A DNA stretch of 64,000 nt from Oscillospiraceae bacterium (GTDB taxonomy: Bacteria > Bacillota > Clostridia > Oscillospirales > SIG530): the NCBI GenBank assembly GCA_015067075.1, contig SVND01000003.1, forward strand, positions 1 to 64,000. Direction: 5' to 3'. The position numbers were made by a program, and so were the translations under genes. The notes below the pieces were generated by a model. The model worked only from the letters and a program-made list of their open reading frames with translations, was not told the DNA's origin and ran no database searches. Of this stretch, positions 33,956 to 41,405 are shown in pieces; within the stretch, counting starts at the first letter, position 1; each line of letters begins with the position of its first letter.

Positions 33956-33996
33956 AAGTGCTGATGTGAGCATTTCACATCAGCACTTTTATTTTT
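33956..33996. terminator. Terminator after ilvE
   Basis: AAGTGCTGATGTGA, a 5-nt loop, TCACATCAGCACTT, then TTATTTTT on the plus strand. It could also serve the convergent lipoprotein gene. Confidence 0.88.
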
Positions 33997-34002
33997 AACG
34001 CA

Positions 34003-34335
34003 TTATTTCCAATCAACAAGCACAGCTTGCTCGGTTGAAAAATAGTCCTCCATCCTACTGCTAAGGCCTGCCGCCTTCCAAGCCTGCGTAAAAGTTATGG
34101 TCTTTCGATTGCTGAGATAAACGAAGGTTGAATCTATTGCGGCATTAGGCATTCTGCCGCTGATGACAAGCCTGTATTTATAAATATTGCCGTCCTTCTG
34201 CCACGTTCCGTCGCTCAGCTCATAATACGTCGTAAACCCCGTCTGAATGGTATCAATTATCTGTGGATCATTCTTTTTTACCGCGCATCCAACAAGCAAG
34301 CAAACGGTAAGCACTAAAACCATTATTCTTTTCAT
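34003..34335 (-). CDS. Small lipoprotein, unknown function
   Basis: A 110-aa exported lipoprotein: basic N-terminus, hydrophobic core and lipobox LLVGC, followed by a soluble beta-rich stretch (GFTTYYELSDGTWQKDGN, YKYRLVISGRMPNA). I do not recognise a family with confidence. It is the last gene of the five-gene operon that starts with the BlaI-like repressor, directly after the DUF4298-like gene with a 1-nt gap. Confidence 0.7.
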   Translation of the reverse strand: MKRIMVLVLTVCLLVGCAVKKNDPQIIDTIQTGFTTYYELSDGTWQKDGNIYKYRLVISGRMPNAAIDSTFVYLSNRKTITFTQAWKAAGLSSRMEDYFSTEQAVLVDWK

Positions 34336-34336
34336 T

Positions 34337-34618
34337 TCATTCTCCCTTCAAAAACCGCTTGTAATCACAAAGAAAATTGTACACACCGTCTTCCGAAAGA
34401 ACACCGCGCTTCAGCGTCGGCTCAAGCAGCTTTTTCTCGTCAAGCTCGTAATCTTTGCGCCATTTACCGCCTTCGTAATACTTTGTCAGCGATTTCAGCA
34501 TTTTTCGCAATCCCTTATCGGCGGCGATAGTATTTGGTGCATTTTTAAAAGCGTCGCTTAACGTGTCAAAATACGTTTCCATCTTCTTTATCCGTTTTAC
34601 CGCAAAATAAATGATCAT
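34337..34618 (-). CDS. DUF4298-like small protein
   Basis: A 93-aa soluble protein. The segment KYYEGGKWRKDYELDE and KRGVLSEDGVYNFL look like the DUF4298 family (usual YY..g.W..D and LKRGVLSED motifs). The function of that family is not known. The start at 34618 follows GAGG by about 11 nt and lies 1 nt after the upstream stop; an internal ATG at 34582 is possible and would remove the hydrophobic-basic head. Fourth gene of the BlaI operon. Confidence 0.65.
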   Translation of the reverse strand: MIIYFAVKRIKKMETYFDTLSDAFKNAPNTIAADKGLRKMLKSLTKYYEGGKWRKDYELDEKKLLEPTLKRGVLSEDGVYNFLCDYKRFLKGE

Positions 34619-34619
34619 A

Positions 34620-35225
34620 TTACTCAGCCTCGTTTATCTTGACGCCCATAACATAGCCATTGCTGTCGTAATAAACTATAGCATATTTATCCATGCCGTC
34701 AATTTTATAAATATCTCCCCAAAGTCCAGACAAATGACCGTCAGGCTCGCCCCATATATCATGGACATTGCTTTCGGATATCCCAAGCAAAGCTTCTTCA
34801 AGCTTTTTTTCGCTGTAGCCGTCAAGCTCGCTGATTTTTGGCACATAAACCTCGCGGTTCTCATAAAGATCAAGCCATTGCGGCGCACTCGCCCAGCCGC
34901 CGTCTTTGCCGACACCGCTTATTTCAGCGCAGGCGGCAGCCATAATATAAGCATCAAGTCCCGCCTCTCCCGAGCGTAAAACAGGTAAAAACGCTTTCAG
35001 CGCGTCATCGCCCGCCGACAGTATCTCATCGTACAGCTCGCGCTTAGCTTCGATGTATGTGTAAGGATTGCTTGAAAAAGCAACGTCGGGGTTGTAGGCT
35101 ATATCATGTACAAGGCTTTGCAAATATTCCGCTGAAATCTTTTCGTTACACGCGGAAAATGAAAAAACAAGTAAAAACAAAGCAAAAAAACAGGCAAACA
35201 AGCGTAAAAAACTACGTTTTTTCAT
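34620..35225 (-). CDS. Lipoprotein of the BlaI/BlaR1 operon
   Basis: A 201-aa protein with a basic start, a long hydrophobic core and lipobox-like FSAC at about residue 26, so probably a lipoprotein. The mature part has an Ala-rich helical region and a C-terminal module (LGISESNVHDIWGEPDGHLS, then DKYAIVYYDSNGYVMGVKI) reminiscent of small SmpA/OmlA-like or BlaR1-associated sensor tails. It lies 15 nt after the M56 gene and probably supplies an extracellular part of the signalling unit; function is inferred from position only. Confidence 0.65.
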   Translation of the reverse strand: MKKRSFLRLFACFFALFLLVFSFSACNEKISAEYLQSLVHDIAYNPDVAFSSNPYTYIEAKRELYDEILSAGDDALKAFLPVLRSGEAGLDAYIMAAACAEISGVGKDGGWASAPQWLDLYENREVYVPKISELDGYSEKKLEEALLGISESNVHDIWGEPDGHLSGLWGDIYKIDGMDKYAIVYYDSNGYVMGVKINEAE

Positions 35226-35240
35226 AAAAATACTCCTTTT

Positions 35241-36137
35241 TTAATGAGAAAAAGCCAAAAAAACAAAAATTAAAACAAAAAAGCAGGTAAAAATCAGCGA
35301 AAAAATCGACATTTTCTTATAAAATATCACGTTTTTGATACGCGCTTCAACTGTTTTCCCACCAAATCCCGACGAAAAAACAGTGCTTTTTTGCTGTGCA
35401 AATTTAAGTAATATCCGCGCGTAATTCTTCCTTTCGCCATCACCCAATTCATACAATGCGCCAATGTCACAGGCAAGCTCACAATCGGTCAAAAGCATCC
35501 TTAAAAATATCCATGAAAGCGGATTGAACCAATGGATGCAAGCGATGAAAACGGCGAAAAACCTCACAATATTATCGCCGCGCCGTATATGAATGCGTTC
35601 ATGCGCCGCCACATAGCGAAGCTCCTTGGCCGTTATACCTTTCGGCAAAATCACACGCGGAAAAAGCATTCCCACAACCATTGCCGTATCAGCTTTTTCA
35701 GAAACGAAAACGTTTCCTCTTATGCGAGCTGCGCCGTTAAATGAATATAAAGACACAATATAAGTGCAAAGAAAATATACGATCAAAAGCACCGCAATTA
35801 CAAGCCATATAACGGCTAAAGCAGAGAAAATCGCTTCGATCATCGCGTTTTTATATACCATGCCTTTGTAATCATCAATAAGCAGTATCACGTTACTCAT
35901 GGCAAAAGCATCCGGAATTTTCGGTATTTCAACAGGTATTATCCGATAAAATCTGAGTATCTCCGGGCGAAGCACAGGTAAAACAGGCAATATCATTCGC
36001 AAAAACGGTAAAAACCATAGAAAATATGTAACCGTTCGCGGTATTTTTTTGATCATTCCAAAAAGCATGACCATGCATCCCATAATGCTCGCGCCGATGC
36101 TCATGTTTACTATCCAATAAAAAGCAGTAGTTATCAT
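35241..36137 (-). CDS. M56 family (BlaR1-like) zinc metallopeptidase
   Basis: A 298-aa membrane protease of the BlaR1/MecR1 type. Several transmembrane segments in the first 130 residues and one at the very C-terminus (SLIFTCFFVLIFVFLAF) flank a metalloprotease loop with the HEXXH motif HERIH and a downstream acidic zinc ligand (LLTDCELACDI). It lacks the C-terminal penicillin-binding domain of BlaR1, so the trigger is probably not a beta-lactam. Such proteins cleave or inactivate BlaI-type repressors; the repressor gene ends 1 nt before this one. Confidence 0.85.
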   Translation of the reverse strand: MITTAFYWIVNMSIGASIMGCMVMLFGMIKKIPRTVTYFLWFLPFLRMILPVLPVLRPEILRFYRIIPVEIPKIPDAFAMSNVILLIDDYKGMVYKNAMIEAIFSALAVIWLVIAVLLIVYFLCTYIVSLYSFNGAARIRGNVFVSEKADTAMVVGMLFPRVILPKGITAKELRYVAAHERIHIRRGDNIVRFFAVFIACIHWFNPLSWIFLRMLLTDCELACDIGALYELGDGERKNYARILLKFAQQKSTVFSSGFGGKTVEARIKNVIFYKKMSIFSLIFTCFFVLIFVFLAFSH

Positions 36138-36138
36138 A

Positions 36139-36501
36139 TCAATCGTCGAGCATTTTCTTTATTTCTTCGATTTCTCCTTCGGTCAGCTCTCCATCGCTTA
36201 AAAATGCTGAGAAAAATGCTTTTTTCGAGCCGCCGAAAAGCTTTTCTATAAGCGTATTCGTTTCAGCTTTGCGAACATCCTCAATAGTTATCGCCGCACA
36301 GCAAGTAAAATTAGGCTCGCTTCGCGTTATCGCCCCCTTTTCCACGAGCTTCGTCACGATAGTGTACGTCGTGTTCTTGCTCCAACCGATAGTATCGCGG
36401 GCAATAAGCGATATGTCCTTCGCCGTTATGGGCTGATGCGCCCACACGATCTCCATCACCTTAAGCTCGCTGTCAAAAAGCTTGATATCCATTTCTTTCA
36501 C
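36139..36501 (-). CDS. BlaI/MecI/CopY-family repressor
   Basis: The 120-aa protein is a winged-helix repressor of the BlaI/MecI/CopY family: LKVMEIVWAHQPITAKDIS, WSKNTTYTIVTKLVEKGAI and the C-terminal dimer region with acidic tail. First gene of an operon with M56 protease, two lipoproteins and a DUF4298 protein. Two palindromic sites overlap its own promoter, so it is autoregulated, and a third matching site lies in the divergent SulP promoter. No beta-lactamase or PBP gene is nearby. Confidence 0.92.
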   Translation of the reverse strand: MKEMDIKLFDSELKVMEIVWAHQPITAKDISLIARDTIGWSKNTTYTIVTKLVEKGAITRSEPNFTCCAAITIEDVRKAETNTLIEKLFGGSKKAFFSAFLSDGELTEGEIEEIKKMLDD

Positions 36502-36509
36502 CCTCTTAT

Positions 36510-36541
36510 ACTATTGCAATAGTGGTACTACTGCAATAGTA
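36510..36541. promoter_or_regulatory. BlaI operators O1 and O2
   Basis: ACTATTGCAATAGT (36510-36523, perfect palindrome) and TACTACTGCAATAGTA (36526-36541, palindrome with one mismatch) lie 16-18 bp apart centre to centre, just downstream of the blaI -10. Spacing and the TACTA...TAGTA half-sites fit BlaI-type operators. Confidence 0.75.
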
Positions 36542-36569
36542 TTGTATCACAACTCATATATTTTGTCAA
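36541..36569 (-). promoter_or_regulatory. Promoter of the BlaI operon
   Basis: On the minus strand TTGACA, 17 nt and TACAAT precede the start at 36501; the operators cover the region between -10 and start. Confidence 0.82.
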
Positions 36570-36637
36570 CTGCTTTTTTGTGGCAAATTTGCGGAATTTA
36601 CAACACATAATTTATTATTATTTTTTTCAAAAAAGGC

Positions 36638-36666
36638 TTGATTTTCTTCGATTGCAGTAGTATAAT
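36638..36666 (+). promoter_or_regulatory. SulP promoter with embedded BlaI half-operator
   Basis: TTGATT, a 17-nt spacer and TATAAT drive the SulP gene. ATTGCAGTAGTA (36651-36662) fills the end of the spacer and the -10 start, and is identical over 12 nt to the reverse complement of O2. Confidence 0.75.
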
Positions 36667-36703: not shown

Positions 36704-38353
36704 GTGAAAAACTTAAAACCCATGCTTTTTACAACGCTGAAAGGTTACAGTAAAGAGCAGTTCATCAAGGACATTGTCGCAGGCATAATCGTTGCGATCA
36801 TTGCCCTTCCGCTTTCCATCGCTTTAGCTCTCGCCTCGGGTGTCAGCCCCGAAAAAGGTATTTACACAGCCATAATCGCAGGCTTTGTAATTTCTTTCCT
36901 CGGAGGAAGCACCGTCCAGATATCAGGCCCAACAGCCGCTTTTGCGACGATAGTTGCAGGCGTTGTAGCAAAAAACGGACTTGACGGACTCGCCGTTGCC
37001 ACCGTGATGGCAGGTATTATACTCGTACTTATGGGTATATTCAAATTCGGCAAGCTCATAAAATTCATTCCTTACCCCATCGCCACAGGCTTTACGGCAG
37101 GTATCGCCGTAACCATACTTATCGGTCAGCTCAAGGACTTTTTCGGCGTTACATATGCACAAGGTGTCAGCCCCATTGAAACAACGGAAAAGCTTGCGGC
37201 ATTTTTTGAAAGCATCGGAACATTCAACTGGGCTGCAATGCTCGTTGGTTTAGTATCGCTTGCTGTGCTTATTGTCTGGCCTATGATACCCAAGGTGCAG
37301 GTCATTCCCGCTTCCCTTATCGCCGTTATCGTCGGCATATTGATGGTGCAATTTTTACCCCTTTCCGTCAACACCATCGGAGATCTTTACACCATAAGCA
37401 ATAAGCTTCCCGCTTTCCAGATGCCCAACGTCAGCTTCGACCTTGTAAAAACAGTTTTACCCGACGCGTTTACCATAGCCGTGCTTGCGGCGATAGAATC
37501 GCTTCTCTCCTGCGTTGTTGCTGACAGCATGACAAACACACGCCACCGTTCCAACATGGAGCTTGTGGCTCAAGGTGCAGGTAACATCGCATCAGCGCTT
37601 TTTGGTGGTATCCCCGCCACAGGCGCTATCGCCCGTACAGCCGCGAACATCAAAAACGGCGGCCGTACCCCCATTTCAGGCATTGTCCACGCCATCGTTC
37701 TTTTACTAATCCTCGTTGTGCTCATGCCCTACGCGTCGCTTATCCCCATGCCCACCATCGCGGCAATACTGTTCATCGTCGCATACAATATGTGCCAGTG
37801 GCGTCCTTTTGTAAAGCTTGTTAAAACAGCGCCGAAGAGTGATATAGCCATACTTGTGCTTACCTTTGTTTTCACCGTAGTTTTTGACCTTGTTGTCGCT
37901 ATCGGTGTAGGTCTCGTCGTTGCTTGCCTGCTTCTGATAAAGAGGCTCAGCGGCTCTGCAAGTGTCGATTCATGGAAATATATTGATGATGAAAACGATC
38001 CTGACAGCATAAACCTTCGCAAGGTTTCAAAACAGATCAAGGTTTACGAGGTCAGCGGTCCGCTGTTCTTCGGTGTTGCGGAAAAGCTTGCTCAAATTGA
38101 GTCCGAAGACGAAACAAAGTGCATTATTTTGCGTATGCGAAGCGTACCGTCTCTTGATATAACAGCGATGAACGAGCTTGAAAGCCTTTATGAAAAGTGC
38201 AAGGAAAAGGGTATTATTCTTATTCTTTCTCACGTTAACGAGCAGCCCATGAAGGTAATGAAAAAGGCAGGCTTTACCGATAAGATCGGCGCAGATAATT
38301 TCTGCTCGCACATAGATGAAGCCATAACGCATGCCGAAAAAATAGTCAAGTAA
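36704..38353 (+). CDS. SulP family inorganic anion transporter (STAS domain)
   Basis: The 549-aa membrane protein is a SulP/SLC26 transporter (sulfate, bicarbonate or similar anions). It starts with GTG behind AGAAGAAGGG. The first 400 residues carry the family segments GIIVAIIALPLSIALALASGV and SGPTAAFATIVAG and about twelve helices; after the last helix a cytoplasmic STAS domain begins near residue 445 (IKVYEVSGPLFFGVAEKL, then ILRMRSVPSLDITAMNELE). Its promoter contains a BlaI-like operator, so it should be part of the same signalling circuit as the divergent operon. Confidence 0.93.
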   Translation: MKNLKPMLFTTLKGYSKEQFIKDIVAGIIVAIIALPLSIALALASGVSPEKGIYTAIIAGFVISFLGGSTVQISGPTAAFATIVAGVVAKNGLDGLAVATVMAGIILVLMGIFKFGKLIKFIPYPIATGFTAGIAVTILIGQLKDFFGVTYAQGVSPIETTEKLAAFFESIGTFNWAAMLVGLVSLAVLIVWPMIPKVQVIPASLIAVIVGILMVQFLPLSVNTIGDLYTISNKLPAFQMPNVSFDLVKTVLPDAFTIAVLAAIESLLSCVVADSMTNTRHRSNMELVAQGAGNIASALFGGIPATGAIARTAANIKNGGRTPISGIVHAIVLLLILVVLMPYASLIPMPTIAAILFIVAYNMCQWRPFVKLVKTAPKSDIAILVLTFVFTVVFDLVVAIGVGLVVACLLLIKRLSGSASVDSWKYIDDENDPDSINLRKVSKQIKVYEVSGPLFFGVAEKLAQIESEDETKCIILRMRSVPSLDITAMNELESLYEKCKEKGIILILSHVNEQPMKVMKKAGFTDKIGADNFCSHIDEAITHAEKIVK

Positions 38354-39023: not shown

Positions 39024-41405
39024 TTATACAAAGATCCATGAAACAATTAAAACAGGTATTGTCCATATGATCTGATAAAGCAAGGCAAGATGCGGCTCTA
39101 TATGCTCAGGTGTTCCCGTATAAAGCATTAAAAGCGCGATTGCAAGCCCGACTATCATCGTTATTATCTGCAATATCGTATTAAAAGTTATGGTCATTTT
39201 CAGCTTCGGAGCTGAAATTATGGCATGGATTATTCCAAGGGGGTTTGTACCGAATATTCCCGCCCGTATGACAGACTTTTCAGCCGTTTTTTCGCTTATA
39301 TCATATGCGGCGCTTTTTGAAAGCATTACGGCAGGGCAATCAAGAACACGTTGTTTAAGTGATATCATTTCCGCCGATACATCGTGGCTTCTTGCGTCTA
39401 CAAGCATTTGCAGATCATCATTTACAAGCGCTTTAATTGTCTTTTGTACAACCTTACAGCCTGAATATTTTACAATGAAAATAGCGGCGATAAAGCCGTT
39501 TGCCGCAACAAAAAGCACGTTACTTCCACCTGACGCGGCTTTGCCCTCGTAATTATCAGGCGGTACCCATACGTTGTATTTACGCATAAGCTCTCGGCTT
39601 CCCGCAAGATACCAAACGCCACGGTATCTGCCCGTAACGCCCATACCCTCTTCATAATCGGCGGCATCGACACGTTCAAAAGCCTCACCGTCAACCATTT
39701 TCGTAAACGCATGGCAAATAGGGCTTGATATTTCTGTAAATATAGCGGCGCACGCCTCAACGACCTTATCTATTTTCGTTTCATCAAGCATTTTCATGCC
39801 TGTGATAGTGACCGTGCCCTTCGGAAACAGTTCAATATCCTTAACTGTTACCGCTTCTATCTGACTTGCTTTTTCGCAAGCAGATATACCGCCGACAGCC
39901 GCTCCTTTAGTACGCATACGCTTTGCAAAACGCACCATGGGGATACCGCTCGCTATTCCCATCGCCGCAGGGCTTGCTATAGCAAGCATCATTGAAAGCG
40001 TATAAAGCACCGGAATTTTTAAAAGTATATAGCACGCCGCTGAAGCAAGACCGATTATCAATAGAATAATCGGTGTTACAGCATACGCAGCACGGGAATT
40101 TTGTGCAGGCTCATATGCGTTTGAAATAACAGACGAGATAAATCCTGTTTTTCGCATGGCCGCAATATTTTTCGTGCCGTTCGATACCTGTCTGCAGGTA
40201 ACACGCTTAACGGTATACATATTTTTTCTACTGAGCGATATTGATAAATTGCTTTTGGCAAACTTCGCCTGTTGCATACGTGAATTTATACAAAGCCAAA
40301 GAGCAAAAACAGCCGATGCATTGTAAAAGCCTGTTGTAAGCATATCTGCAGGCGATGTGAAAAATACGAACGCATTGTGACCGACAGTACAAATCACCGA
40401 CAGCGCCGCCATTGTTTCCCAGCCCATTCTGAAACGGAAAATATCCGCAATTCCTGAAATTATTATGTCAATGCACGTTAAAATTGCTATTCCCGTCGGT
40501 ATTACAAGCAAAGCAAACGCGCAAAGCGCTGTTTCGCTTGGGAAAAGCTTTTCAGCCGCAAACTGAATCATTTGTGGGAAAAAGGCAAATACCAACAAAA
40601 GAGCCAAGAGCATAAAGCAGAAAAGGCTTCTTTGTGACAGCGATAATTCAAGCTGTGATATTCTGTATTCAGCCTCGCTTCCGTTATACATCGAGGTGCA
40701 TTCGGGAACGGGAATGCTGTAAGTATACGTTTTGCGTATTTTTTCTCGCGGCTTTTTTTCAGAAAATGTTTTTGTTCTGGGTTCCGAAAATCCTCTATAT
40801 ATAGGTGCGTTTTTATGTTTATTTGCCGATTTTCCGCGGCTTTTTTGATTTTTCGAGGATTTTTTTCTTATTATTTCTTCTTTTTGCCCCGTATTTTTTT
40901 GACTTTTTACGTTTTTTTGCTGTTTTTCGGCTGTTTTTTCAAAAAATTCAGGCTTGCCTTGCGTTTTTTTCGTCCCTTCTGTCTTCCTGTTGCCTTGCGC
41001 TTGCGACTGTACTTTTCGAGACTGCGCCTCAGCTTTCGCCTTCACATCAGGCTGAGGAGCTTGTTTTTCCATCGCCTTTTTTGCAGGCATAAAAGCAGCG
41101 AAATCATAATCCTTTTCTTCTTTTTTCGGCTCTTGCTCACGTATCGTTTTTACGCGTATATCGCCCTCAACGCCCACGCTTTCAAAAGAAAAACCCATTT
41201 TCTTTGCCGCATCGTCAAAGCTTTTATCCGCATCACCCATGTCCATCGAGGAAAGGATGCTTTCTATGCTCGCCGCCGCAGTTTCTCTGACACGCAGATT
41301 TTCACGGCGCATTGCGTCAACATCCCTGCGAATATCGTCATATCTGCCGTTTTTGTGGCGTTGCTGTTCAATTATTTGATTTACGTCGTATTTTTCAACG
41401 CCCAA
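39024..41405 (-). CDS. Degenerate P-type ATPase-like membrane protein
   Basis: A 793-aa protein starting with TTG. Residues 1-245 are charged, Lys/Gln/Glu-rich and probably disordered. From 260 the helix order and the cytoplasmic loop look like a P1B heavy-metal ATPase, but the catalytic motifs are gone. The membrane CPC motif is ASPA (477-480); DKTGT is replaced by KDIELF near 522-527; the N-domain HP motif is SPIC (561-564); TGD is replaced by VDARSH near 669. No TGES actuator motif is found in the shortened loop of about 60 aa between 378 and 440. The recognisable N-domain pattern GMGVTGRYRGVWYLAG (587-602) shows the origin. It cannot hydrolyse ATP by the normal mechanism; a structural or sensory role is possible. 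Cotranscribed with rlmB upstream and the zinc-ribbon protein downstream. Confidence 0.75.
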   Translation of the reverse strand: MGVEKYDVNQIIEQQRHKNGRYDDIRRDVDAMRRENLRVRETAAASIESILSSMDMGDADKSFDDAAKKMGFSFESVGVEGDIRVKTIREQEPKKEEKDYDFAAFMPAKKAMEKQAPQPDVKAKAEAQSRKVQSQAQGNRKTEGTKKTQGKPEFFEKTAEKQQKNVKSQKNTGQKEEIIRKKSSKNQKSRGKSANKHKNAPIYRGFSEPRTKTFSEKKPREKIRKTYTYSIPVPECTSMYNGSEAEYRISQLELSLSQRSLFCFMLLALLLVFAFFPQMIQFAAEKLFPSETALCAFALLVIPTGIAILTCIDIIISGIADIFRFRMGWETMAALSVICTVGHNAFVFFTSPADMLTTGFYNASAVFALWLCINSRMQQAKFAKSNLSISLSRKNMYTVKRVTCRQVSNGTKNIAAMRKTGFISSVISNAYEPAQNSRAAYAVTPIILLIIGLASAACYILLKIPVLYTLSMMLAIASPAAMGIASGIPMVRFAKRMRTKGAAVGGISACEKASQIEAVTVKDIELFPKGTVTITGMKMLDETKIDKVVEACAAIFTEISSPICHAFTKMVDGEAFERVDAADYEEGMGVTGRYRGVWYLAGSRELMRKYNVWVPPDNYEGKAASGGSNVLFVAANGFIAAIFIVKYSGCKVVQKTIKALVNDDLQMLVDARSHDVSAEMISLKQRVLDCPAVMLSKSAAYDISEKTAEKSVIRAGIFGTNPLGIIHAIISAPKLKMTITFNTILQIITMIVGLAIALLMLYTGTPEHIEPHLALLYQIIWTIPVLIVSWIFV

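Follow-up and report, generated by a model that had tools for sequence, protein, structure and literature searches.

The BlaI-type locus in the window, i.e., the whole 64,000-nucleotide stretch of Oscillospiraceae DNA that was analysed, was read as a clostridial BlaI–M56 derepression switch. Its predicted trans target is a split-off membrane-protein gene on contig C16, not the divergent sulP gene, and the probability of this reading was put at roughly 75%. The gene families, the operators, the promoter geometry, their conservation and an orphan operator pair on C16 were observed directly in the genomes compared.

The BlaI–M56 operon and its tandem operators

The operon consisted of five tightly packed minus-strand genes: BlaI and an M56 protease came first, followed by two genes for lipoprotein-like proteins with a DUF4298 gene between them. 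The first gene (36139..36501, minus strand) encoded a repressor of the BlaI/MecI/CopY family. The PF03965 profile (E=8e-23) scored 81.4 bits, with the cut-off at 22.6, and covered the whole protein (residues 10-119), which also aligned with S. aureus BlaI and MecI from the PDB. Translation more likely begins at ATG 36492 (117 aa) than at GTG 36501 (120 aa), because a purine-rich GAGGGTG is located at the right distance and the orthologs begin near there. The second gene (35241..36137, minus strand) encoded a 298-aa M56 zinc metalloprotease with an HERIH motif (PF05569, E=1.8e-40, 139.4 bits). This protein ended after its last membrane helix and aligned only to residues 30-322 of the 602-aa S. 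aureus BlaR1. According to the profile search, it had no domain besides PF05569 and no match to a transpeptidase or penicillin-binding sensor. The HExxH motif was present in 25/25 extracted M56 sequences, and nearly all of the closer orthologs were equally short.

The third gene (34620..35225, minus strand) encoded a 201-aa lipoprotein-like protein, whose N-terminal signal carried a lipobox-like LVFSFSAC. No Pfam family was assigned to it, and its matches elsewhere in the order were only partial. Residues ~137-196 (WGEPDG-LSGLWGDIY) matched two other genomes (L184, L186) at positions away from M56, and the C-terminal part is possibly an unnamed small domain. The DUF4298 gene (34337..34618, minus strand; PF14131, E=3.8e-18) was separated from each of its neighbours by a 1-bp gap. 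The last gene (34003..34335, minus strand) encoded a 110-aa lipoprotein-like protein with the signal LTVCLLVGCA and without a Pfam family. A bidirectional terminator-like hairpin (33956..33988), with a stem of 14-15 pairs and a T tract on both strands, was located at the end of the operon. No beta-lactamase or PBP gene was present in the operon. The gene content reported in the first-pass annotation (a sensor-less protease, two lipoproteins and a DUF4298 protein, without a beta-lactamase) was thus borne out by the Pfam profiles. Divergent from the operon was a gene for a SulP-family anion transporter with a STAS domain (36704..38353, plus strand; PF00916, E=1.4e-87, and PF01740). At 39024-41405, the window contained a 793-aa minus-strand ORF, which had no Pfam match and showed apparent membrane helices in its second half.

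The blaI promoter (36541..36569, minus strand) had the form TTGACA-17-TACAAT, and a TG preceded its -10 box. It had 11/12 consensus matches and was overlaid by two palindromes. Operator 2, TACTACTGCAATAGTA (36526..36541, 21.6 bits), had as its first base the last base of the -10 box, and operator 1, TACTATTGCAATAGTG (36509..36524, 21.1 bits), was positioned between operator 2 and the start codon. The operator scoring matrix was trained solely on other genomes; the median of its training sites was 20.9 bits, and its consensus operator was GACTATTGCAATAGTC. Both operators were far outside the chance expectation. The two palindromes that had been claimed for this promoter were recovered by the pattern search, and the coordinates 36510-36666 given for the region were right.

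The BlaI orthologs were 48-60% identical to the window BlaI. In other families of the order, the genes of these orthologs were preceded by a TTGACA box and then a tight pair of GACTATTGTGATAGTA / GACTATNNNNATAGTC-type palindromes, and the operator arms of more distant BlaI proteins had diverged. The pair pattern ACTAYNNNNRTAGT-N2-14-ACTAYNNNNRTAGT was present in 29/394 genomes of the order, whereas the reversed control pattern had 0 matches in all 394 genomes. In the other 28 genomes, 27/28 pair loci were located directly before a BlaI gene, usually with M56 as the next gene. Judged from sequence, the tandem BlaI operators are real, because the close BlaI–M56 orthologs carry such pairs and C. 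thermocellum BlaI uses GACTAT/ATAGTC pairs. Palindromic operators on the own promoter, which are a mark of the BlaI family, were found for the window blaI and for its closer orthologs. The window operators differed from the classical BlaI/MecI/CopY operator core, which is TACANNTGTA (PMC7253601), and would represent a variant form, as do those of C. thermocellum BlaI. A tandem pair of another palindrome, ACTACGCATGTAGT, was observed at locus L142 (G078:C47:3004-3041). No BlaI homolog was detected beside this pair, and it may belong to another regulator.

An orphan operator pair on contig C16

The genome-wide pair search returned by pattern exactly one further tandem pair, located at C16:52194-52227, and the total for the window genome was two. 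This single orphan operator pair is what is new in the present analysis. The pair had the form GACTATTATGATAGTA-TG-TACTATAGCAGTAGTT (21.2 and 18.7 bits) and was surrounded by a promoter, TTGACA-17-TAGTAT, that matched the BlaI-operon promoter of relatives. The gene behind the pair (C16:52266-53231) encoded a 322-aa polytopic membrane protein, for which the profile search gave no Pfam family. The orphan pair, the promoter and the 322-aa gene together formed the locus L144:6195-7235, which corresponds to C16:52194-53234. No BlaI or M56 gene was located beside the pair.

The orthologs of the C16 gene were the third gene of a blaI–M56 operon, with M56 directly upstream in 16/22 carrier genomes of the order. 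Among the 6 unlinked copies of the gene, operators were present only in the copy of the window genome. A membrane protein that stands behind BlaI–M56 in many genera and bears operators when alone is the strongest pointer to the purpose of the switch. Most likely, the C16 gene is what remained of a blaI–M56–membrane protein operon after the loss of its regulator genes. Moreover, the trans target of the window BlaI is probably the C16 gene rather than sulP; recognition of the C16 operators by this repressor is assumed because the motifs are identical.

The origin and ownership of the pair were considered in light of the whole assembly. The window genome, a 96%-complete draft of 85 contigs from which a second BlaI could be missing, contained one M56 gene, which was in the window, and one other full BlaI homolog (C66:12393-12725, L016; PF03965). 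The C66 homolog had no M56 nearby and no palindromes of the window type upstream. Because of these missing palindromes and of a genome without a second M56, it was discounted as the repressor to which the C16 pair belongs. Bin contamination was likewise rejected as the source of C16 on tetranucleotide composition, which gave a correlation of 0.93-0.97 with the genome versus <=0.72 for six outgroup loci. In a rough FastTree phylogeny, the window BlaI–M56 pair branched outside the clade carrying the membrane-protein gene. The idea that the window pair had itself been split off from the membrane-protein operon was therefore unsupported, and a take-over of the C16 gene by a paralog or xenolog appears more likely than the simple split of one operon. 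Two other operator-like sites, C78:8522 (16.2 bits) and C12:24676 (15.8 bits), were rejected as targets because each was inside a transporter coding sequence; the operator-like sites on C73 were in or adjoining coding sequence.

The operator-like site in the sulP promoter

The sulP promoter (TTGATT-17-TATAAT; 36638..36666, plus strand) had 10/12 consensus matches. It contained a weak operator-like site, TTCGATTGCAGTAGTA (36647..36662, plus strand, 10.55 bits), of which the right half was intact and the left half was broken. The 12-mer ATTGCAGTAGTA, which the first-pass annotation had placed within the spacer of this promoter, was indeed found there at 36651-36662.

The similarity of this site to an operator arose quite probably by chance, from the common -10 context TAGTATAAT and a few spacer bases that match an operator half. 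Promoter-like sites of the form TTG-N17-TAGTATAAT occurred 15 times in the genome versus 0-1 times for the reversed control, and the SulP orthologs L064 and L067 carried GTAGTATAAT without an operator. Furthermore, 7.67 of the 10.55 bits of the sulP site came from TAGTA, which overlaps the -10 box. Background operator scores were computed on 293 kb of the genome, in which 3 unrelated sites, all in coding sequence, scored as high as the sulP site. However, none of the other 14 TTG-N17-TAGTATAAT promoters exceeded 2 bits by the operator matrix, so the match was rarer than this context would lead one to expect. The chance of the sulP-site score was ~0.002 by background density (3 sites/293 kb, ~190 bp of intergenic DNA) and ~0.006 given the -10 context. 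The sulP site was hence only modestly above chance.

An alternative is that BlaI also represses the divergent sulP gene through the degenerate spacer site, which is unlikely. Exact copies of ATTGCAGTAGTA in the 2.26-Mb genome were confined to operator 2 and sulP, and the sulP site was the best of 30 SulP upstream regions (10.6 bits versus 7.0 for the next best), with the low chance values given above. A repressor bound in the spacer would block polymerase, and for C. thermocellum BlaI_1845 one repeat per probe is enough for binding in vitro (PMC8457756). However, the 16-mer TTCGATTGCAGTAGTA had 2 mismatches to the operator consensus, and its left half, TTCGAT, missed two conserved positions. 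The score of 10.55 bits was 8-11 bits lower than the 18.7-21.6 bits of the true operators, and the site was single, whereas published BlaI targets have two palindromes.

The comparison of genomes also argued against regulation of sulP by BlaI. No operator was found in the upstream regions of 29 other SulP orthologs, which belonged to families other than that of the window. Conservation of a shared operator was contradicted by three genomes (G020, G056, G089), which keep SulP and the BlaI operon with its operators; the best sites in their SulP upstream regions (L066, L068, L075) were <0 bits. The neighbourhoods of SulP orthologs at 59-68% identity, plus more distant homologs, were also compared. 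SulP was not found beside BlaI or M56 in the other genomes, and the adjacency was seen in the window genome only. The proposed link between the BlaI circuit and SulP through a shared operator was not supported: the site was absent from orthologs in genomes keeping the BlaI operon, an outcome that the first-pass annotation had named as refuting; moreover, one half of the site was ruined, its score was 8-11 bits low, and its -10 context was common. According to these features, the sulP site is probably not a functional shared operator. Weak occupancy of the site by BlaI is possible, as its score exceeds the simple chance models. The case shows that a half-operator over a -10 box is easily over-read.

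A further reading joins the two sites, and it is quite improbable. Two unlinked targets would have been taken over in one lineage, the C16 gene by a full pair and sulP by a half-operator that is still forming in its -10 region, and the regulon would be in the middle of rewiring.

Proposed switch and comparison with known systems

In the preferred reading, a BlaI–M56 switch with the C16 gene as its distant target, BlaI dimers would bind the two adjacent palindromes over the blaI -10 box and the start region, and the operon would be repressed. A signal, probably from the envelope, would be received without a penicillin-binding sensor and would activate M56. This signal may enter via the membrane/extracellular loop of M56 and the co-encoded lipoproteins. 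The active M56 would then cut BlaI, which would lead to derepression of blaI–M56–lipoprotein–DUF4298–lipoprotein without direct sensing of beta-lactams. The C16 gene would now be served by the window BlaI after its own regulator genes were lost. The envelope is suggested as the source of the signal because lipoproteins are co-encoded and the membrane protein is conserved. Sensing of envelope or anion stress had been suggested earlier for this circuit; the envelope part is reasonable in view of the lipoproteins and the membrane protein, and the anion part found no support. A classical beta-lactam-sensing BlaI/BlaR1 system is very unlikely, although both proteins are homologous to BlaI and BlaR1, given an M56 protein without a penicillin-binding sensor and an operon without a beta-lactamase or PBP gene. 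BlaI–M56 pairs without a beta-lactam sensor recur across the order.

The design of the locus, a self-controlled clostridial BlaI–M56 switch, is already known, and the split regulon is the point of mild interest. DAP-seq and EMSA showed that a C. thermocellum BlaI recognizes GACTAT/ATAGTC arms, and each of its targets carries a pair of palindromes; the blaI–blaR1 operon is autoregulated, and for BlaI_0696 paired sites are found at distant operons as well (PMC8457756). The window system had in common with it the GACTAT/ATAGTC arms, the paired palindromes, also at a distant gene, and an operon that is predicted to be autoregulated. It differed in its targets, which are predicted from sequence to be the lipoproteins, DUF4298 and, in trans, the split-off membrane-protein gene.

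The BlaI–BlaR system of M. tuberculosis (Rv1846c–Rv1845c) is described, in an account that cites Sala et al. 2009, as having a sensor-less M56 protein and BlaI targets outside the operon (PMC5473688). As far as that account goes, M. tuberculosis BlaR resembles the window M56 as a protease without an extracellular sensor, and BlaI targets beyond the operon are predicted for the window system as well. Unlike the M. tuberculosis system, the window system had no beta-lactamase target found, one full distant site and other cargo.

The S. aureus BlaI–BlaR1 and MecI–MecR1 systems share the repressor family and the HExxH M56 protease with the window locus, whereas the latter had no sensor domain or beta-lactamase, and its operator was ACTAYNNNNRTAGT rather than the TACANNTGTA of S. 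aureus. In S. aureus, BlaI is cleaved between Asn101 and Phe102, and the autocleavage of BlaR1 occurs between Ser283 and Phe284 (PMC9834060). An A–F pair of the window BlaI aligned at the former position, and a G–F pair of the window M56 protein aligned at the latter.
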